17,264 bases of DNA from an uncultured Planctomycetaceae bacterium (GTDB lineage: Bacteria > Planctomycetota > Planctomycetia > Planctomycetales > Planctomycetaceae). The stretch's first letter is position 1. Every line of letters begins with the position of its first letter. Below are positions 8,326 to 16,721 of this stretch, piece by piece. Location: NCBI GenBank assembly GCA_903921605.1, contig CAIXQV010000430.1, positions 1-17,264 of the forward strand. Direction: 5' to 3'. The notes under the pieces were generated by a model. The model searched no databases. It was not told the DNA's origin and saw only the letters and a list, made by a program, of their open reading frames with translations. Made by a program: the position numbers and the translations under genes.

Positions 8326-8922
8326 TCAGCCGAGTTTCTGCAGAACATTGTCAATCAGGTTGTACTGTTTGGCTTCGTCTGCAGACATGAAGTTGTCGCG
8401 GTCAGTGTCTTCTTCAATCTTCGTCAGCGTCTGGCCCGTATGCTTCAGCAGAATGTCGTTCATTTTGCCTTTGATTCGCAGCACTTCCTTGGCATGGATT
8501 TCCAGTTCTGTTGCTGTTCCTTCCATACCCGCCAACGGCTGATGAATCATGATGCGTGCATTCGGCAAAGCATTTCGCTTGCCTGGAGTTCCCGCCGTCA
8601 GCAGGATCGCACCCATACTGGCCGCCTGACCGATGCAATACGTCGCCACATCGCAACTGATGTATTGCATGGTGTCGTAAATCGCCATGCCTGCTGTGAT
8701 CGATCCGCCCGGGCTGTTGATATAGAAATGAATATCAGCCTTAGGGTCATCGAACTGCAAAAACAGAAACTGAGCAACGATGCTGTTGGCCACATCGTCG
8801 TTAACACCGCTGCCCAGGATCACGATGCGATCCTTCAGCAGGCGGCTATAAATGTCCATCGCGCGTTCGTCGCGACCATTTTTTTCAATGACATAAGGAA
8901 CAAGTACAGTCATATCCGGCAT
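8326..8922 (-). CDS. clpP: ATP-dependent Clp protease proteolytic subunit (second of the pair)
   Basis: This serine protease subunit forms the barrel that degrades proteins fed by ClpX, ClpA or ClpC. The 198-aa length is normal. The triad is intact and spaced as in E. coli ClpP: Ser102 in [11 protein letters not shown], His127 in IMIHQPLAG and Asp176 in TDRDNFM. The oxyanion and substrate-strand region [16 protein letters not shown] is conserved. The N-terminus ([14 protein letters not shown]) has two possible Met starts (residues 1 and 4), and neither has a strong ribosome site. It follows the other clpP by 65 nt and ends 36 nt before a strong terminator. It is the more canonical of the two copies, and its partner may form a mixed barrel with it. 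No clpX follows, unlike in many proteobacteria. Confidence 0.95.
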
Positions 8923-8987
8923 CCCGCAGAGATGATTTTTGATTCGAAGTCAGAACAGTCACCCGAGCAATTCACTATGTCAGCAAA

Positions 8988-9599
8988 CTACTTCTTTTTT
9001 TCTTTGGGAGGACGTTCCAGAATCTCATCCACCAGACCGTAAGCCTTGGCGTCAACCGCATTTAGGTAATGGTCGCGCTGAGTATCCTTCGCGATTCGTT
9101 CAATCGGCTGCTTCGTGTGATCTGCCAGAATCTCGTTCAGCAACTGACGAGCAGCCAGAATATCACGAGCCTGAATTTCAATATCAGAAACCTGACCACC
9201 CACTTGACCATAAGGCTGGTGGATCATGATCTTTGAATGCTTCAGAGCAAACCGCTTTCCAGGTGCCCCACCAGCCACAAGAATCGCCCCACCACTCGCT
9301 GATAGTCCAACGCTGTAAGTGGCGACGTCGCACTCTACGAACTGCATAATGTCGTAGATCGCGAGAGTTGCGGTGACTGAACCACCAGGCGAGTTGATGT
9401 AAAGATGAATGTCCTGATGTCGATTCTCGGACTGCAGGAACAGCATCTTCATGACGATCAGATTGGCACTGCCGTCATGAATCGGGCCGTCCAGGAAAAT
9501 GATCCGATTGTCAAGCAGCAGATCACCGACCGTCATCTGACGTTGAGCCGAATATTCTCGGGCTGCCATTGGCATGTAGTCGAATCGCGGGTCCTTCAT
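8988..9599 (-). CDS. clpP: ATP-dependent Clp protease proteolytic subunit (first of the pair, divergent active-site loop)
   Basis: This is a second ClpP of 203 aa, clearly a paralogue of the downstream gene. The triad is present at the same numbering: Ser102, His127 (IMIHQPYGQ) and Asp176 (TQRDHYL). The nucleophile loop reads VGLSASGGAILVAGG rather than the usual GQAASMGA, so Gly replaces the Met after the serine and Leu-Ser replaces Gln-Ala; this may change the S1 pocket or processing. The tail is basic (RPPKEKKK). AGGA lies 8 nt upstream of the ATG. It sits between tig, with an intervening terminator, and the other clpP. Paired clpP genes also occur in actinobacteria and cyanobacteria, where both subunits can be needed for an active mixed complex; that is inference here. 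Confidence 0.93.
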   Translation of the reverse strand: MKDPRFDYMPMAAREYSAQRQMTVGDLLLDNRIIFLDGPIHDGSANLIVMKMLFLQSENRHQDIHLYINSPGGSVTATLAIYDIMQFVECDVATYSVGLSASGGAILVAGGAPGKRFALKHSKIMIHQPYGQVGGQVSDIEIQARDILAARQLLNEILADHTKQPIERIAKDTQRDHYLNAVDAKAYGLVDEILERPPKEKKK

Positions 9600-9737: not shown

Positions 9738-11195
<1,458 letters not shown>

Positions 11196-12842: not shown

Positions 12843-15800
12843 TCAGGAGATCCCGTACTTCTTGCACTTGCTGAAGAAGGTGCTTCGCGGCAGGTTGAGC
12901 TGTCTTGCGGCGACGGCTTTGTTGCCGCCGGCGGCTCGTAATGCTTCGCGGAGCTGCTGCTCTTCGGATTGTGTTTCACGAAGCTGAGAGGCGTTTGATC
13001 CCGCATAACTTTCAGGCTCAGGCAGGCGTCGAGCAAGACTGCGGACGGTGAGCGTGGGCAGCGTTGATGTCTGAGTTCGGCGCCCGCCAATTGTTGGGCG
13101 TCCATCATCAGCGGCATTCCGCAGTTCGGGCGGCAAGTCGGCCAGGCAGATAATGTCGCTGTCGGCCAGCACGACGGCTCGCTCAATCACGTTCTCCAAC
13201 TCACGAATGTTGCCCGGCCACGGATGATTCTCCAGCGCGGCCAATGCGCTGGGGTCAATCTGACGAATCTGCTTTTTGGACTTCTGGGCGGCTCGGCTGA
13301 GAAAGAAGAAGACCAGTTCCGCCAGATCACCGGGCCGTTCCCTCAGTGGCGGCAGCGTTAGTGCGACGACGTTCAGGCGATAAAACAGGTCGGCTCGAAA
13401 TTGCCCTTTGGAAATCATCTCTTCCAGATTCCGATTGGTCGCCGCCACAAGTCGCACGTCCACCTGAATCGTCTTGTCACTGCCTACCGGTTCGAAACAT
13501 CGCTCCTGAAGAACTCGCAGAAGTTTGACCTGCGTCTCGTGGGAGATGTCGCCGATCTCATCCAGAAACAGCGTGCCTCCATTGGCTGCGAGGAACCGCC
13601 CGGCTTTATCGGCATGAGCGCCTGTGTAAGCGCCTTTCACATGACCAAACAATTCGCTTTCCAGCAGCGATGACGACAGAGCCGCACAGTTCACGCAGAC
13701 AAGATTTCCGGCGGCACGATCACTGTTGCGATGAATGACTTTGGCCAGCAACTCTTTGCCAGTCCCGCTTTCGCCTCGAATCAAAACCGTCGATGAGCTA
13801 CGAGCCACCTTGCGAACCTGATCCAGCACATCCAACAAAGCAGGACTGTTTCCTCGAACACCTTCTCGATCAAAACCCTGATCTGAGGCCAGAACCGGAG
13901 CCTGCCCTGCGTCTGTCTGAAGCGACGTCAGCTCCGCTCGCAGAGCAGCCATTTGACGCTGCTGTTCGGCGATGCGATCCATCTTCATCTTCAGCTCCGC
14001 ATCCAGCTGCGCCATCGCCTGATTCGCGCGGGAGCTGTGCAGAGCCAAAACGCTCATTTGAGCGATCGCGTGAAGGAACGTGATATCTTCAGCGCTGAAC
14101 ACCGCGCCGCCGCGACGACGTCCCAGAATAATGACGCCGTGAACTCCGCCTTCGCCTTCCATCACGCACAACAGTTCGGCTCGCAAGTCATGCAACAACT
14201 GCTGCATTGGCGACATCGCTTCGCGATTGGCTGAAGGAATTCGATGAATGACGGATTCGCCGGGGATGTCTACCTGAACCTGTTCAGGACGCAACTGAGC
14301 GGTCGCGGCCGATGTGGAACGTGTTCCGATCAGACGAAAAACACCGTGCCCATCGCGGACGTACATGATCGCCCACGAGGCATCCATCACATCCTGACAA
14401 GTCTTCAGAGTAATGTCGGCCATCCCGGATGGCTCGGCAAGATACGCCGCCGAGCGATTTAGTTGCTGCATCGCTCGATCGAGCTGGTACTTCTCACTGA
14501 AGAATCTTCGATCCACAACCGCCTGCAGTCGGTCACGCACCCACAAGCTCAGGCCAGCAGCCAGCAGCAGAATGAAGAACAGAGACAGTTGCTGAGTTGT
14601 CGTGGAATTCAGCGGGAGACTGTACGAATGAGTAAACACTCCACCGATCGCGAGTAACGTCGCGAAGCCGCCCGACACAATCATCGACATCAGCACATAT
14701 CGGCGGCTCTTGTCGTCGCCCTCTTCGGCCAGCATCAGGCGATGGCGAAAGATGCCGTGCGAATAAGCCGCCATAAACAACATGCTCGCGATAAACATCG
14801 GGATCTGAGCATGTCCAAGAGCGAAGTCGACTTTGCGAAAGAATGCGAGGTACAACGTATAGCCGATGGGAATTGTCGAAAGCAGCGCGGCCCCAAGAAT
14901 CGTAGCCACCTGGCGACGCTCATGAGGTGTTTCCAGGCGAATCAAACTGAGGGCCAGCTTGCCGACCGTGATCGCAAAGTAGAGTGATGCAAAGATAATT
15001 GCCACATGGACCATTGATCGCAGCAGCGATAACAGCCATGTTGCATGGGCCACGGAAGCCACTGTTGAAGCCGAACCATGCACGGCAATCTGTGACAACA
15101 CGGCCAGTTTCTGAAACACATTCAGAGTATCACTGCCGTTCAGGCTCCACGCCGCCCAGTAAATTACGACGAGAGAAACGCAGATCAGACCTGCTATTCC
15201 GAAGGCCGTTCCCAGGACCCAGCCGCGGCGGCCACGGACAAACTCGGGCTCTTTCGGAAAGACCAAAAAGAAGTTCAGCACGAGACAAGGCAGCATCGCA
15301 GCGCAAACGATGAACGGGATGTTCAGCAAAGGGCTATTCGCCAAAATCCACCAGTGAAACCCAGGCACGAATGCTCCCATGGCCGCACAGCACATCAGGC
15401 AGAAATTCTGAGCAACCCGGTCGAATGGACGATACCAATAAGAGGTAAGTGCGATCGCGAGGATCGATAGCTGACAGACAAACCAGAAAATCGTGAGCGA
15501 GACTTCGCCAACGTTCACCGGATGTACCGGCACGTAGACGCGACTTTCCACCTCCTGATGAGCGGCCCCGGGTCGACGATAAACGATTTCAACAAGTCGT
15601 TGTGAGGGCTGAGAAGGATCTGCACTATACACCTCCACCAAAGGAGGAACTCGCAGCTTCGCCGGGTCTGACTCCGGAGCTAACTGCCCACCGGGTGGAA
15701 TCTTGGCGGAACGCAACGACTCTAGAGCGGACACGAAATCCAGAAACGTGCCAATCTGCCGCCCATTGAGGCGAAGAAGTTGGTCGCCCGCTCTGGGCAC

Positions 15801-16286
15801 GGAAGAATCAATCACAAAATCCGGGCGACTCCATTCCCAGATCTCGATCCCCGACAAGGGCCGCGAAATTGTTTTTCGCGGGGCGGGCTCAGAAACAGCC
15901 GCAACCTGCGCAGGGGCGATCGATAACCGCCGAGCCGCCAGCGAAACGGCTCTGCGTTGATGTGTCCCTGTTGCCTCAGACAAAACTGAAACAGCTTGCG
16001 GCAAGTTTGCCAGCGGTCGGAATCGTGCAACCCCGGAAATCCTGCTTCTGTCTGTCGAGCCGCAGCCGTCTGCAAGGCAATTCAATGCCGGGCGAAGATC
16101 AGGGACCTCGGGGGCCAAGATCGGCGCGGGGCCATCCGGGAGTAAGCAACGAAGACCAACGTCGGGAAAGGTGGCAACATTCAAGAGCACGGTCACGCAA
16201 TACGTCACCACGAGCCCCGTGCATGTCGCAACGAAGGCGCGGCAATCGTGCGTCCCGCCCTGATTATTTGAATACCACAGCTTCAC
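12843..16286 (-). CDS. Membrane-embedded sigma54-dependent transcription activator (PDZ - multi-TM - GAF - AAA+ - Fis HTH)
   Basis: The 1147-aa protein starts with one membrane segment (~18-38). An exported region follows, with a PDZ-like domain (~145-240; RAGDQLLRLNGRQIG). Then come about nine membrane segments between 262 and 584, a linker (DRRFFSEKYQLD), a GAF domain (~605-750), a coiled coil (~755-795), the sigma54-interacting AAA+ domain (~810-1045) and a Fis-type helix-turn-helix (1111-1145, GGNKAVAARQLNLPRSTFF). The AAA+ part is intact: Walker A GESGTGKE 838-845, GAYTGA 885-890 (a Tyr variant of the sigma54-contacting GAFTGA), Walker B TLFLDE 905-910, the FRADLFYRLNV region and HPWPGNIREL 1021-1030. 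It has no receiver domain, so it should sense directly through PDZ, membrane or GAF parts. The start is GTG at 16286 with AAGGA 9-10 nt upstream. It faces dyad repeats and a sigma54 promoter across the divergent intergenic region. Confidence 0.93.
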   Translation of the reverse strand: MKLWYSNNQGGTHDCRAFVATCTGLVVTYCVTVLLNVATFPDVGLRCLLPDGPAPILAPEVPDLRPALNCLADGCGSTDRSRISGVARFRPLANLPQAVSVLSEATGTHQRRAVSLAARRLSIAPAQVAAVSEPAPRKTISRPLSGIEIWEWSRPDFVIDSSVPRAGDQLLRLNGRQIGTFLDFVSALESLRSAKIPPGGQLAPESDPAKLRVPPLVEVYSADPSQPSQRLVEIVYRRPGAAHQEVESRVYVPVHPVNVGEVSLTIFWFVCQLSILAIALTSYWYRPFDRVAQNFCLMCCAAMGAFVPGFHWWILANSPLLNIPFIVCAAMLPCLVLNFFLVFPKEPEFVRGRRGWVLGTAFGIAGLICVSLVVIYWAAWSLNGSDTLNVFQKLAVLSQIAVHGSASTVASVAHATWLLSLLRSMVHVAIIFASLYFAITVGKLALSLIRLETPHERRQVATILGAALLSTIPIGYTLYLAFFRKVDFALGHAQIPMFIASMLFMAAYSHGIFRHRLMLAEEGDDKSRRYVLMSMIVSGGFATLLAIGGVFTHSYSLPLNSTTTQQLSLFFILLLAAGLSLWVRDRLQAVVDRRFFSEKYQLDRAMQQLNRSAAYLAEPSGMADITLKTCQDVMDASWAIMYVRDGHGVFRLIGTRSTSAATAQLRPEQVQVDIPGESVIHRIPSANREAMSPMQQLLHDLRAELLCVMEGEGGVHGVIILGRRRGGAVFSAEDITFLHAIAQMSVLALHSSRANQAMAQLDAELKMKMDRIAEQQRQMAALRAELTSLQTDAGQAPVLASDQGFDREGVRGNSPALLDVLDQVRKVARSSSTVLIRGESGTGKELLAKVIHRNSDRAAGNLVCVNCAALSSSLLESELFGHVKGAYTGAHADKAGRFLAANGGTLFLDEIGDISHETQVKLLRVLQERCFEPVGSDKTIQVDVRLVAATNRNLEEMISKGQFRADLFYRLNVVALTLPPLRERPGDLAELVFFFLSRAAQKSKKQIRQIDPSALAALENHPWPGNIRELENVIERAVVLADSDIICLADLPPELRNAADDGRPTIGGRRTQTSTLPTLTVRSLARRLPEPESYAGSNASQLRETQSEEQQLREALRAAGGNKAVAARQLNLPRSTFFSKCKKYGIS

Positions 16287-16311: not shown

Positions 16312-16409
16312 TTCAGCGCACGTCGGCGCTGATCAAGTTGGGGAACGGTAGGTGTTCAGCGCCGAAGTTTCAAGCGTCCAGCGATTTCGGCGCTGAAGTG
16401 TTGAGCGCC
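16312..16409. promoter_or_regulatory. Cluster of TTCaGCGCcGAA dyads, probable activator-binding (enhancer) sites
   Basis: Site 1 is TCAGCGC (16313-16319), 6 nt, GCGCTGA (16326-16332), a perfect dyad. Site 2 is TTCAGCGCCGAA (16355-16366) and site 3 is its exact reverse complement TTCGGCGCTGAA (16386-16397); each is itself near-palindromic (TTCnGCGCnGAA), and their centres are 31 bp apart. A further half-site TTGAGCGCC is at 16401-16409. They lie about 110-200 bp upstream of the start expected from the -24/-12 promoter at 16490-16506, the usual place for enhancers of sigma54 activators, and 26-123 bp upstream of the activator's own GTG, so autoregulation is also possible. Binding by the neighbouring Fis-type HTH is inference. 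Confidence 0.6.
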
Positions 16410-16489
16410 ATGTGCCTGTCACGCTTGCTTTTGCGTCGTTTGAGGACGTTTAGTGCACAGTATTTGAGGTTCTCGAAAAATCGGCAGAA

Positions 16490-16506
16490 TTGGCACGTTT
16501 CATGCA
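16490..16506 (+). promoter_or_regulatory. Sigma54 (-24/-12) promoter
   Basis: TTGGCACG (16490-16497), four bases, then ATGCA (16502-16506). The consensus is YTGGCACG-N4-TTGCW, so only one base differs. The invariant GG (16492-16493) and GC (16504-16505) are exactly 12 bp apart. The expected start is near A16517. A dedicated sigma54 activator is encoded divergently next door. Confidence 0.75.
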
Positions 16507-16516
16507 TTTGCAGAAC

Positions 16517-16658
16517 AGTACCCAGCGCCCTTCGGCATGGATGAGTAAGTGTTGAACGAAGAATACACTCGCTGCTCAAGGTTACCCAGCCAGATGCAGC
16601 TTCCCCAGCCTCTTCGACGTTCAGTCCCCGCACCTGCTCACCGCCGAAGGGCTTTTTT
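16517..16658 (+). ncRNA. Candidate sigma54-controlled structured RNA (small RNA or leader of the dehydrogenase gene)
   Basis: Starting at the predicted sigma54 start site, the sequence has nested pairing. P1 is GCCCTTCGGC (16527-16536) with GCCGAAGGGC (16643-16652), a perfect 10 bp closing stem followed at once by T6 (16653-16658). P2 is TGAACG (16553-16558) with CGTTCA (16618-16623), extended by AAG/CTT across a 3-nt bulge. P3 is GCTGC (16571-16575) with GCAGC (16596-16600). The ends make a terminator-like structure for a ~142-nt RNA. No plausible protein is encoded: the AUG at 16537 meets a stop after four codons. I do not recognise it as 6S, tmRNA, RNase P or SRP RNA. It may be a free regulatory RNA, or a leader whose P1 stem attenuates the dehydrogenase gene at 16722. 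Confidence 0.5.
16643..16658 (+). terminator. Terminator-like 3' arm with T6 of the structured RNA
   Basis: GCCGAAGGGC is followed directly by TTTTTT. Its pairing partner is 107 nt upstream at 16527-16536 rather than next to it, so the terminator forms only by closing the whole RNA. A weak local GCC/GGC hairpin is the only nearer alternative. Confidence 0.5.
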
Positions 16659-16683
16659 ATGCGCTGAGTTTGGGTATGGTCGA

Positions 16684-16702
16684 GTTGATTTGCTCGATCA
16701 AC
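16684..16702. promoter_or_regulatory. Inverted repeat in the dehydrogenase leader
   Basis: GTTGAT (16684-16689) and ATCAAC (16697-16702) form a perfect 6-bp inverted repeat with a 7-nt gap, 20 nt before the dehydrogenase start. It could be an operator or an RNA hairpin near the ribosome site; nothing decides between them. Confidence 0.3.
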
Positions 16703-16721
16703 ATTCTGCATTGGAGCCATG

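Follow-up and report, generated by a model that had tools for sequence, protein, structure and literature searches.

Organisation of the locus

In this work we describe a locus within the window, the whole stretch of 17,264 nucleotides that was analysed, in which a gene for a predicted sigma54 activator is divergent from a -24/-12 promoter. The promoter is followed by a putative small RNA closed by an end-to-end stem and a run of six T residues, and palindromes resembling enhancer sites lie between the activator gene and the promoter. Coordinates are collected in Table 1.

Table 1. Features of the activator and small RNA locus, in positions of the window
Feature	Position	Strand	Basis or remark
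Sigma54 activator (bEBP)	12843-16286	-	Pfam PF00158 (AAA+), AAA lid, HTH_8 (Fis-type); hydropathy; orthologues opposite the RNA
Enhancer-like palindrome, weak copy	16322-16333	.	2 mismatches; 33 bp to next copy
Enhancer-like palindrome TTCAGCGCCGAA	16355-16366	.	exact
Enhancer-like palindrome TTCGGCGCTGAA	16386-16397	.	exact; 31 bp past previous copy
-24/-12 sigma54 promoter TGGCACGTTTCATGCA	16491-16506	+	read from sequence; conserved in relatives
Small RNA (putative)	16517-16658	+	~142 nt; models R1/R2, covariation; start inferred, 12 nt past -12 element
Unpaired ACCCAG close to 5' end	16520-16525	+	motif analysis
Closing stem, 5' arm GCCCTTCGGC	16527-16536	+	sequence, covariation
Inner stem, 5' arm, GTG and TGAAC	16549-16557	+	covariation, helices 2 and 3
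Hairpin, 5' arm GCTGC	16571-16575	+	covariation, helix 4
ACCCAG within hairpin loop	16584-16589	+	motif analysis
Hairpin, 3' arm GCAGC	16596-16600	+	covariation
Unpaired TCCCCAG	16602-16608	+	motif analysis
Inner stem, 3' arm, GTTCA and CAC, bulged GTCCCC (16624-16629)	16619-16633	+	covariation
Closing stem, 3' arm (terminator arm) GCCGAAGGGC	16643-16652	+	sequence, covariation
T6 terminator run	16653-16658	+	sequence
Conserved ATGCGC, 3' of T-run	16659-16664	+	conservation

Promoter, fold and terminator of the RNA

Promoters were scored over 12 positions of TGGCACG-N4-TTGCW, with GG-N10-GC spacing. The window promoter matches at 11 of the 12, placing the expected start near 16517. The two arms of the closing stem pair perfectly across an intervening 106 nt, with the T6 run directly 3', and the minimum-energy fold of 16517-16670 reaches -56 kcal/mol; for 200 dinucleotide shuffles the value is -40.7 (sd 3.38), and none was equally good (z -4.53). 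As a guide to chance levels, both strands of 1.6 Mb from the genome of a relative (G036) held 6 promoter-like sites scoring 11 or 12, 79 scoring at least 10 and 479 scoring at least 9, and a perfect 10-bp stem with roughly the same loop size preceded 1 of its 1042 T6 runs. An earlier, sequence-only reading of this DNA had described an element one base from consensus with exact spacing, a perfect 10-bp end-to-end stem with T6, and two further stems nested inside; each of these descriptions holds, the nested stems being GTG/CAC with TGAAC/GTTCA, and GCTGC/GCAGC. Transcription of a small RNA here is predicted from the conservation of the locus described below.

Distribution and covariation among relatives

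To place the RNA in an evolutionary context, 99 relatives were searched with the activator protein of the window, and the best 30 places were taken as loci (L001-L030); some sigma54 activator was present in all 99 by this protein search. With blastn (E <= 1e-4) the RNA was found at 15 of the 30 loci, always upstream of the activator and in divergent orientation. A covariance model (R1) was built from 15 sequences, the corresponding alignment A1 omitting one locus cut by a contig end (L009), and at E <= 1e-5 it recovered the RNA in 21 of the 30. R1 matched exactly once in every one of 18 genomes of the same genus. Across the bacterial family it matched 32 of 170 genomes, 14 of these being its own seeds. 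A second model (R2), representing a second subtype and built from the 19 sequences of alignment A4, matched 118 of the 170, including its 19 seeds and one genome with two matches (G207). Together the two models, which do not overlap, cover 150 of the 170 family genomes and 49 of 58 genera, with a single copy in 149 genomes. Neither model matches the other 20; in three of these (G020, G021 and G042) a promoter and closing stem were found by script (L082, L066 and L074, respectively), and in others, such as G037, no RNA was seen in the flank examined (L087). Searches of 397 genomes of the class gave 89 matches, 88 within the main family of the RNA and one in another family (f9), and those of 392 genomes of the phylum gave 23, all within the main family; these wider searches used stricter filters, by which weak matches were lost.

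The paired positions of the RNA covary. In a structure-guided alignment of 31 sequences (A3), which was fitted to its model and is thus biased in favour of the structure, 94.4% of cells were paired and 20 of 25 pairs showed two-sided changes; on each of five measures all 500 shuffles scored lower, and sliding the structure along the alignment reduced pairing to 32-50%. For the second subtype, whose structure was picked by scanning its own alignment and carries a similar bias, 82.5% of the cells of A4 were paired (0 of 500 shuffles) and 11 of 15 pairs had two-sided changes (1 of 500), while the number of further pair types was less unusual (30 of 500), such that covariation is weaker than in A3. 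Conservation and covariation in relatives, the test put forward by the sequence-only reading, were thus both observed, and it appears that a small regulatory RNA not described before is carried by this family of planctomycetes. By eye, some genera seem to have a second C-rich domain inside the RNA (L065, L026).

The promoter is conserved in the same arrangement. Across 70 loci, 57 sites scoring at least 10 of 12 lay on the divergent strand and 3 on the other, against 4.45 expected per strand; such a divergent site was present in 54 of the 70, the 16 loci that had none belonging mostly to other families. A closing stem ahead of a T-rich run was found in 50 of 68 promoter segments and in 114 of 1360 shuffles, the former count taking in a few seemingly spurious stems (L014 and L022, of 7 bp; L094 and L099, from other families). 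A further sample comprised 40 model-found loci, namely those of the 150 model-matched genomes with fetched loci outside A1. Here, with 420 nt scanned, a site scoring at least 9 occurred within 105 nt upstream in all 40 (at least 10 in 35), and the activator lay on the opposite strand in 39, the remaining locus starting 286 nt from a contig end. For 25 of these 40, which had contributed to no model and had not been selected by position, the site was present in every case and the activator in 24. RpoN is encoded in 39 of 40 relatives. Promoter, stem and T-run recur together across genera, as expected of the single transcription unit that had been proposed.

The divergent activator and its putative enhancer

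The divergent activator and the enhancer-like palindromes are two informative parts of the locus that were absent from the sequence-only reading. Hydropathy analysis of the activator indicates an N-terminal hydrophobic segment and 7-9 others; a GAF_3 domain was detected only below the cut-off, and only in activator orthologues, and the predicted structure is weak (mean pLDDT 58.6, pTM 0.39). The RNA appears to be switched by a membrane-bound sensor encoded next door, which would convert a signal from outside directly into RNA, and we infer that sensing of a signal is the role of the activator.

Between the activator gene and the RNA promoter lie copies of the palindrome TTC(G/A)GCGC(C/T)GAA. 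With up to 2 mismatches allowed, all 48 loci have a palindrome within 300 nt upstream, and 40 have two or more, compared with 2 of 47 downstream control stretches and 3.8% of shuffles; the loci counted are the window and 47 others in which a stem was identified by script, among them L014, L022 and the f9 locus L089, with L092, L094 and L099 left out. Copies are spaced 31-34 bp apart, about three turns of the helix, in 38 of 76 cases, and 21 bp apart, about two turns, in 6. Exact copies are scarce: each of eight genomes has between 1 and 11 of them, and between 0 and 7 copies of a reversed control. Six of these genomes (G001, G012, G015, G056, G022 and G019) have one or two exact copies at the RNA locus and 0-5 elsewhere, the latter about equal to the reversed control, and two (G060 and G100) have none of their exact copies at the RNA locus. 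In the 1.6 Mb of G036, two palindrome pairs lie away from the RNA, neither with a sigma54 site. The palindrome is probably the enhancer of the activator, a prediction from sequence under which the activator would bind it. The palindromes also precede the activator gene, which may therefore be autoregulated.

The hexamer ATGCGC, often followed by TGA, is kept directly after the T-run in the window and in relatives. The string GCGCTGA corresponds to half an enhancer palindrome, and it might in addition lengthen the closing stem; in six genomes, TTTTATGCGC was counted 66 times against 47 for its reversed control, hardly above it.

Proposed circuit and comparison with known systems

The promoter, palindromes, activator gene, RNA scaffold, motifs and terminator are established as elements of the locus by sequence and comparison. 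Joined into a circuit, they would operate as follows: a membrane-anchored sigma54 activator would sense a signal, bind two or three of the palindromes (centred some 125-190 nt ahead of the expected start) and drive RpoN polymerase at the -24/-12 promoter; the product would be a single-copy RNA of ~142 nt with its own terminator, and this RNA would act in trans by means of ACCCA and UCCCC motifs that recur, unpaired, on a covarying scaffold. We consider a dedicated one-component switch with RNA output likely, an estimate that applies to the switch and the RNA and not to the mode of action of the RNA. As there are candidates for promoter, activator and enhancer motif, and covariation extends across the family, both the input and the output of the circuit can be tested by single deletions.

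Qrr RNAs form an Rfam family, and CrcZ and CrcY carry repeated binding motifs, the Hfq/Crc motif being A-rich. The closest layout is that of LuxO-Qrr1 in the Vibrionaceae, in which a sigma54-dependent small RNA is divergent from the gene of its sigma54 activator, qrr1 lying 151 bp upstream of luxO with a sigma54 promoter and activator sites (PMC8043402); the V. fischeri qrr1 promoter is described as having two LuxO sites (PMC10162802). The systems differ in that the window activator has a membrane anchor and LuxO an N-terminal regulatory domain, and in that the window palindrome differs from TTGCAWWWTGCAA; the window RNA also has no Rfam match, and Hfq was not found in any of 40 relatives. Among RNAs acting as decoys, CrcZ and CrcY of Pseudomonas, under CbrB, are RpoN-dependent and sequester an RNA-binding complex (PMC8657755), and GlmY of Enterobacteria, under QseF (GlrR), is described as a sigma54-driven decoy that titrates the RNA-binding protein RapZ (PMC7073468); both resemble the window RNA if this, too, is a decoy. 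In contrast to CrcZ and CrcY, the window RNA has an ACCCA motif, no detected Hfq and no Rfam match, and, unlike QseF-GlmY, the window has a single membrane-anchored activator, no two-component pair and no Rfam match. The circuit would thus work in the style of LuxO-Qrr1, CrcZ and GlmY, an analogy by which membership of any of these classes is not established. In a literature search covering titles and the starts of abstracts, with subscription journals mostly outside it, no sigma54-controlled planctomycete small RNA was found.

Possible action of the RNA

Motifs were counted in 45 RNAs, that of the window and those of 44 loci of the family at which a script located a closing stem; two loci with a weak stem (L014, L022) were dropped, and others, for example L015, L020, L025, L029, L072 and L081, were left out where the script found none. 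ACCCA occurs 88 times against 14.3 expected, with an unpaired probability of 0.88 compared with 0.39 overall, and UCCCC 49 times against 24.2 expected, with an unpaired probability of 0.89 against the same overall value, 16 of the 45 RNAs having no UCCCC. Such repeated motifs suit either a decoy or a multi-site antisense RNA. We know of no ACCCA-binding protein. A sponge for CsrA of the CsrB/RsmZ type was rejected because AGGA is depleted in the 45 RNAs (15 against 25.5 expected).

An antisense regulator would pair its C-rich motifs with G-rich stretches of a few mRNAs, in the manner of Qrr but independently of Hfq. The near-invariant motifs do sit in loops and single strands, and Qrr RNAs, the closest in layout, are reported to regulate target mRNAs post-transcriptionally (PMC8043402). 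Against this, complements of the motifs are not enriched upstream of genes in the 1.6 Mb of G036 (CTGGGT, 8 against 15.2 expected; TGGGTC, 5 against 10.0), nor are UGGGU-type complements enriched at translation starts in the same 1.6 Mb, where they are somewhat depleted, such that no target is in sight; the gene starts came from a home-made gene caller, whose starts are enriched in AGGA, AAGG and GGAG, and a mere handful of targets would escape a test of this kind. Hfq (PF17209) was likewise found in 0 of 40 genomes of relatives, by a search whose control itself succeeded in only 5 of 14 known genomes. We regard base pairing with a few mRNAs as a substantial possibility, at somewhat less than an even chance. 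As a separate observation, CTGGGT at translation starts of G036 (L227-L306, 1.6 Mb) occurs 3 times against 11.4 expected; the depletion of TGGGT words perhaps means that pairing with some abundant C-rich RNA is avoided, or perhaps reflects codon effects.

Taken together, the motif repeats, the lack of enrichment of their complements, the failure to find Hfq and the depletion of AGGA point to an RNA that probably acts in trans through its ACCCA and UCCCC motifs, with the decoy slightly preferred. That the last step is the binding of an RNA-binding protein by the RNA as a decoy is our leading suggestion, held at close to an even chance and ranked slightly above mRNA base pairing. In bacteria in which Hfq went undetected, the repeated ACCCA boxes are of wider interest as pointers to an RNA partner.

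Other readings of the locus

It could be argued that the palindromes and conserved DNA serve mainly the expression of the activator itself, the RNA being a by-product, and the palindromes do fall within the shared intergenic region. However, the RNA stems covary, and in one genome (G038) the RNA (L307, contig C267) and the best activator match are on different contigs; no activator lies in the 5.5 kb around the RNA, which still keeps a promoter matching 9 of 12 positions and three palindromes with one mismatch each. That palindromes and promoter stay with the RNA away from the activator links the palindromes to the RNA, and this arrangement also suggests action in trans; we hold the by-product reading to be very improbable. 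Slightly less credible still is a leader or attenuator of the downstream gene in place of a free RNA: a dehydrogenase-like ORF (16719 on, forward strand) starts 60 nt past the T-run and is common to L001-L003, but downstream ORFs vary elsewhere, no group with a common ORF exceeding 6 of 45 loci and the ORF of that group lying on the opposite strand, while the RNA and its terminator persist.

6S RNA has a closing stem and a bulged rod. The window RNA shares an end-to-end closing stem with internal bulges, but that it is 6S in diverged form, or belongs to some other class in Rfam, is the least probable reading of all: a search of 16440-16720 against Rfam up to E 10 gave a single match, to a nematode snoRNA on the opposite strand (E 7.1), none was obtained up to E 0.5 at the loci of 20 relatives, and 6S itself (RF00013) was found in 25 of 40 relatives (14 above the gathering score), at a separate locus where both RNAs were found, as in G001, with 6S on contig C68 and the RNA on C21, and the window RNA has a sigma54 promoter and C-rich loops. 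These searches bear out the sequence-only reading, which could match the RNA to no known class and had likewise seen no protein that fits.

A peptide gene was considered and rejected, as the start most often shared by ORFs of at least 10 codons, a GTG, occurs in 10 of 31 sequences. No conserved reading frame was found in these 31 RNAs, in which the longest ORF has 25 codons and gap runs are mostly 1 or 2 columns; no ORF of at least 10 codons lies wholly within 16520-16662, and two mechanically called ORFs cross the RNA (16338-16544, forward; 16370-16720, reverse).

A hydrolase-like ORF at the divergent position in other families

At ten loci of other families of the class (L088, L090, L091 and L093-L099) the divergent position is occupied by an ORF with a GxSxG motif, which alone is a weak sign; the two such ORFs tested by Pfam (L096 and L098) are alpha/beta hydrolases (PF00561). 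A sigma54-like site scoring at least 9 is present at 8 of the ten, and one scoring at least 10 at only two. Palindromes with 0 or 1 mismatch occur anywhere in the fetched 1.7-2.1 kb at six (L088, L090, L091, L095, L096 and L097), and none was found within that span at L093 and L099. The family f9 carries the RNA itself (L089 and G429), in G429 with a promoter matching 9 of 12 positions, palindromes and the activator. These sequence comparisons hint that the output was swapped, RNA for enzyme. The fuller scenario, in which an ancestral membrane sigma54 switch for an alpha/beta-hydrolase gene was re-wired in one planctomycete family so that the RNA became the sole output of the sensor, serving as an ACCCA decoy for an RNA-binding protein in bacteria lacking Hfq, is tentative, and we would put its chances at little better than one in three. 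If the exchange is true, it would provide a traceable case in which a regulator keeps its site while its output changes from protein to RNA.

Other features of the window

Elsewhere, an Acido-Lenti-1 RNA (RF01687) was matched at 892-937 on the reverse strand, just at the gathering score (37.1 against 37). Two adjacent ORFs at 8326-9599, also on the reverse strand, which we take to encode ClpP-like proteases, lie downstream of a presumably trigger-factor-like ORF (9738-11195).
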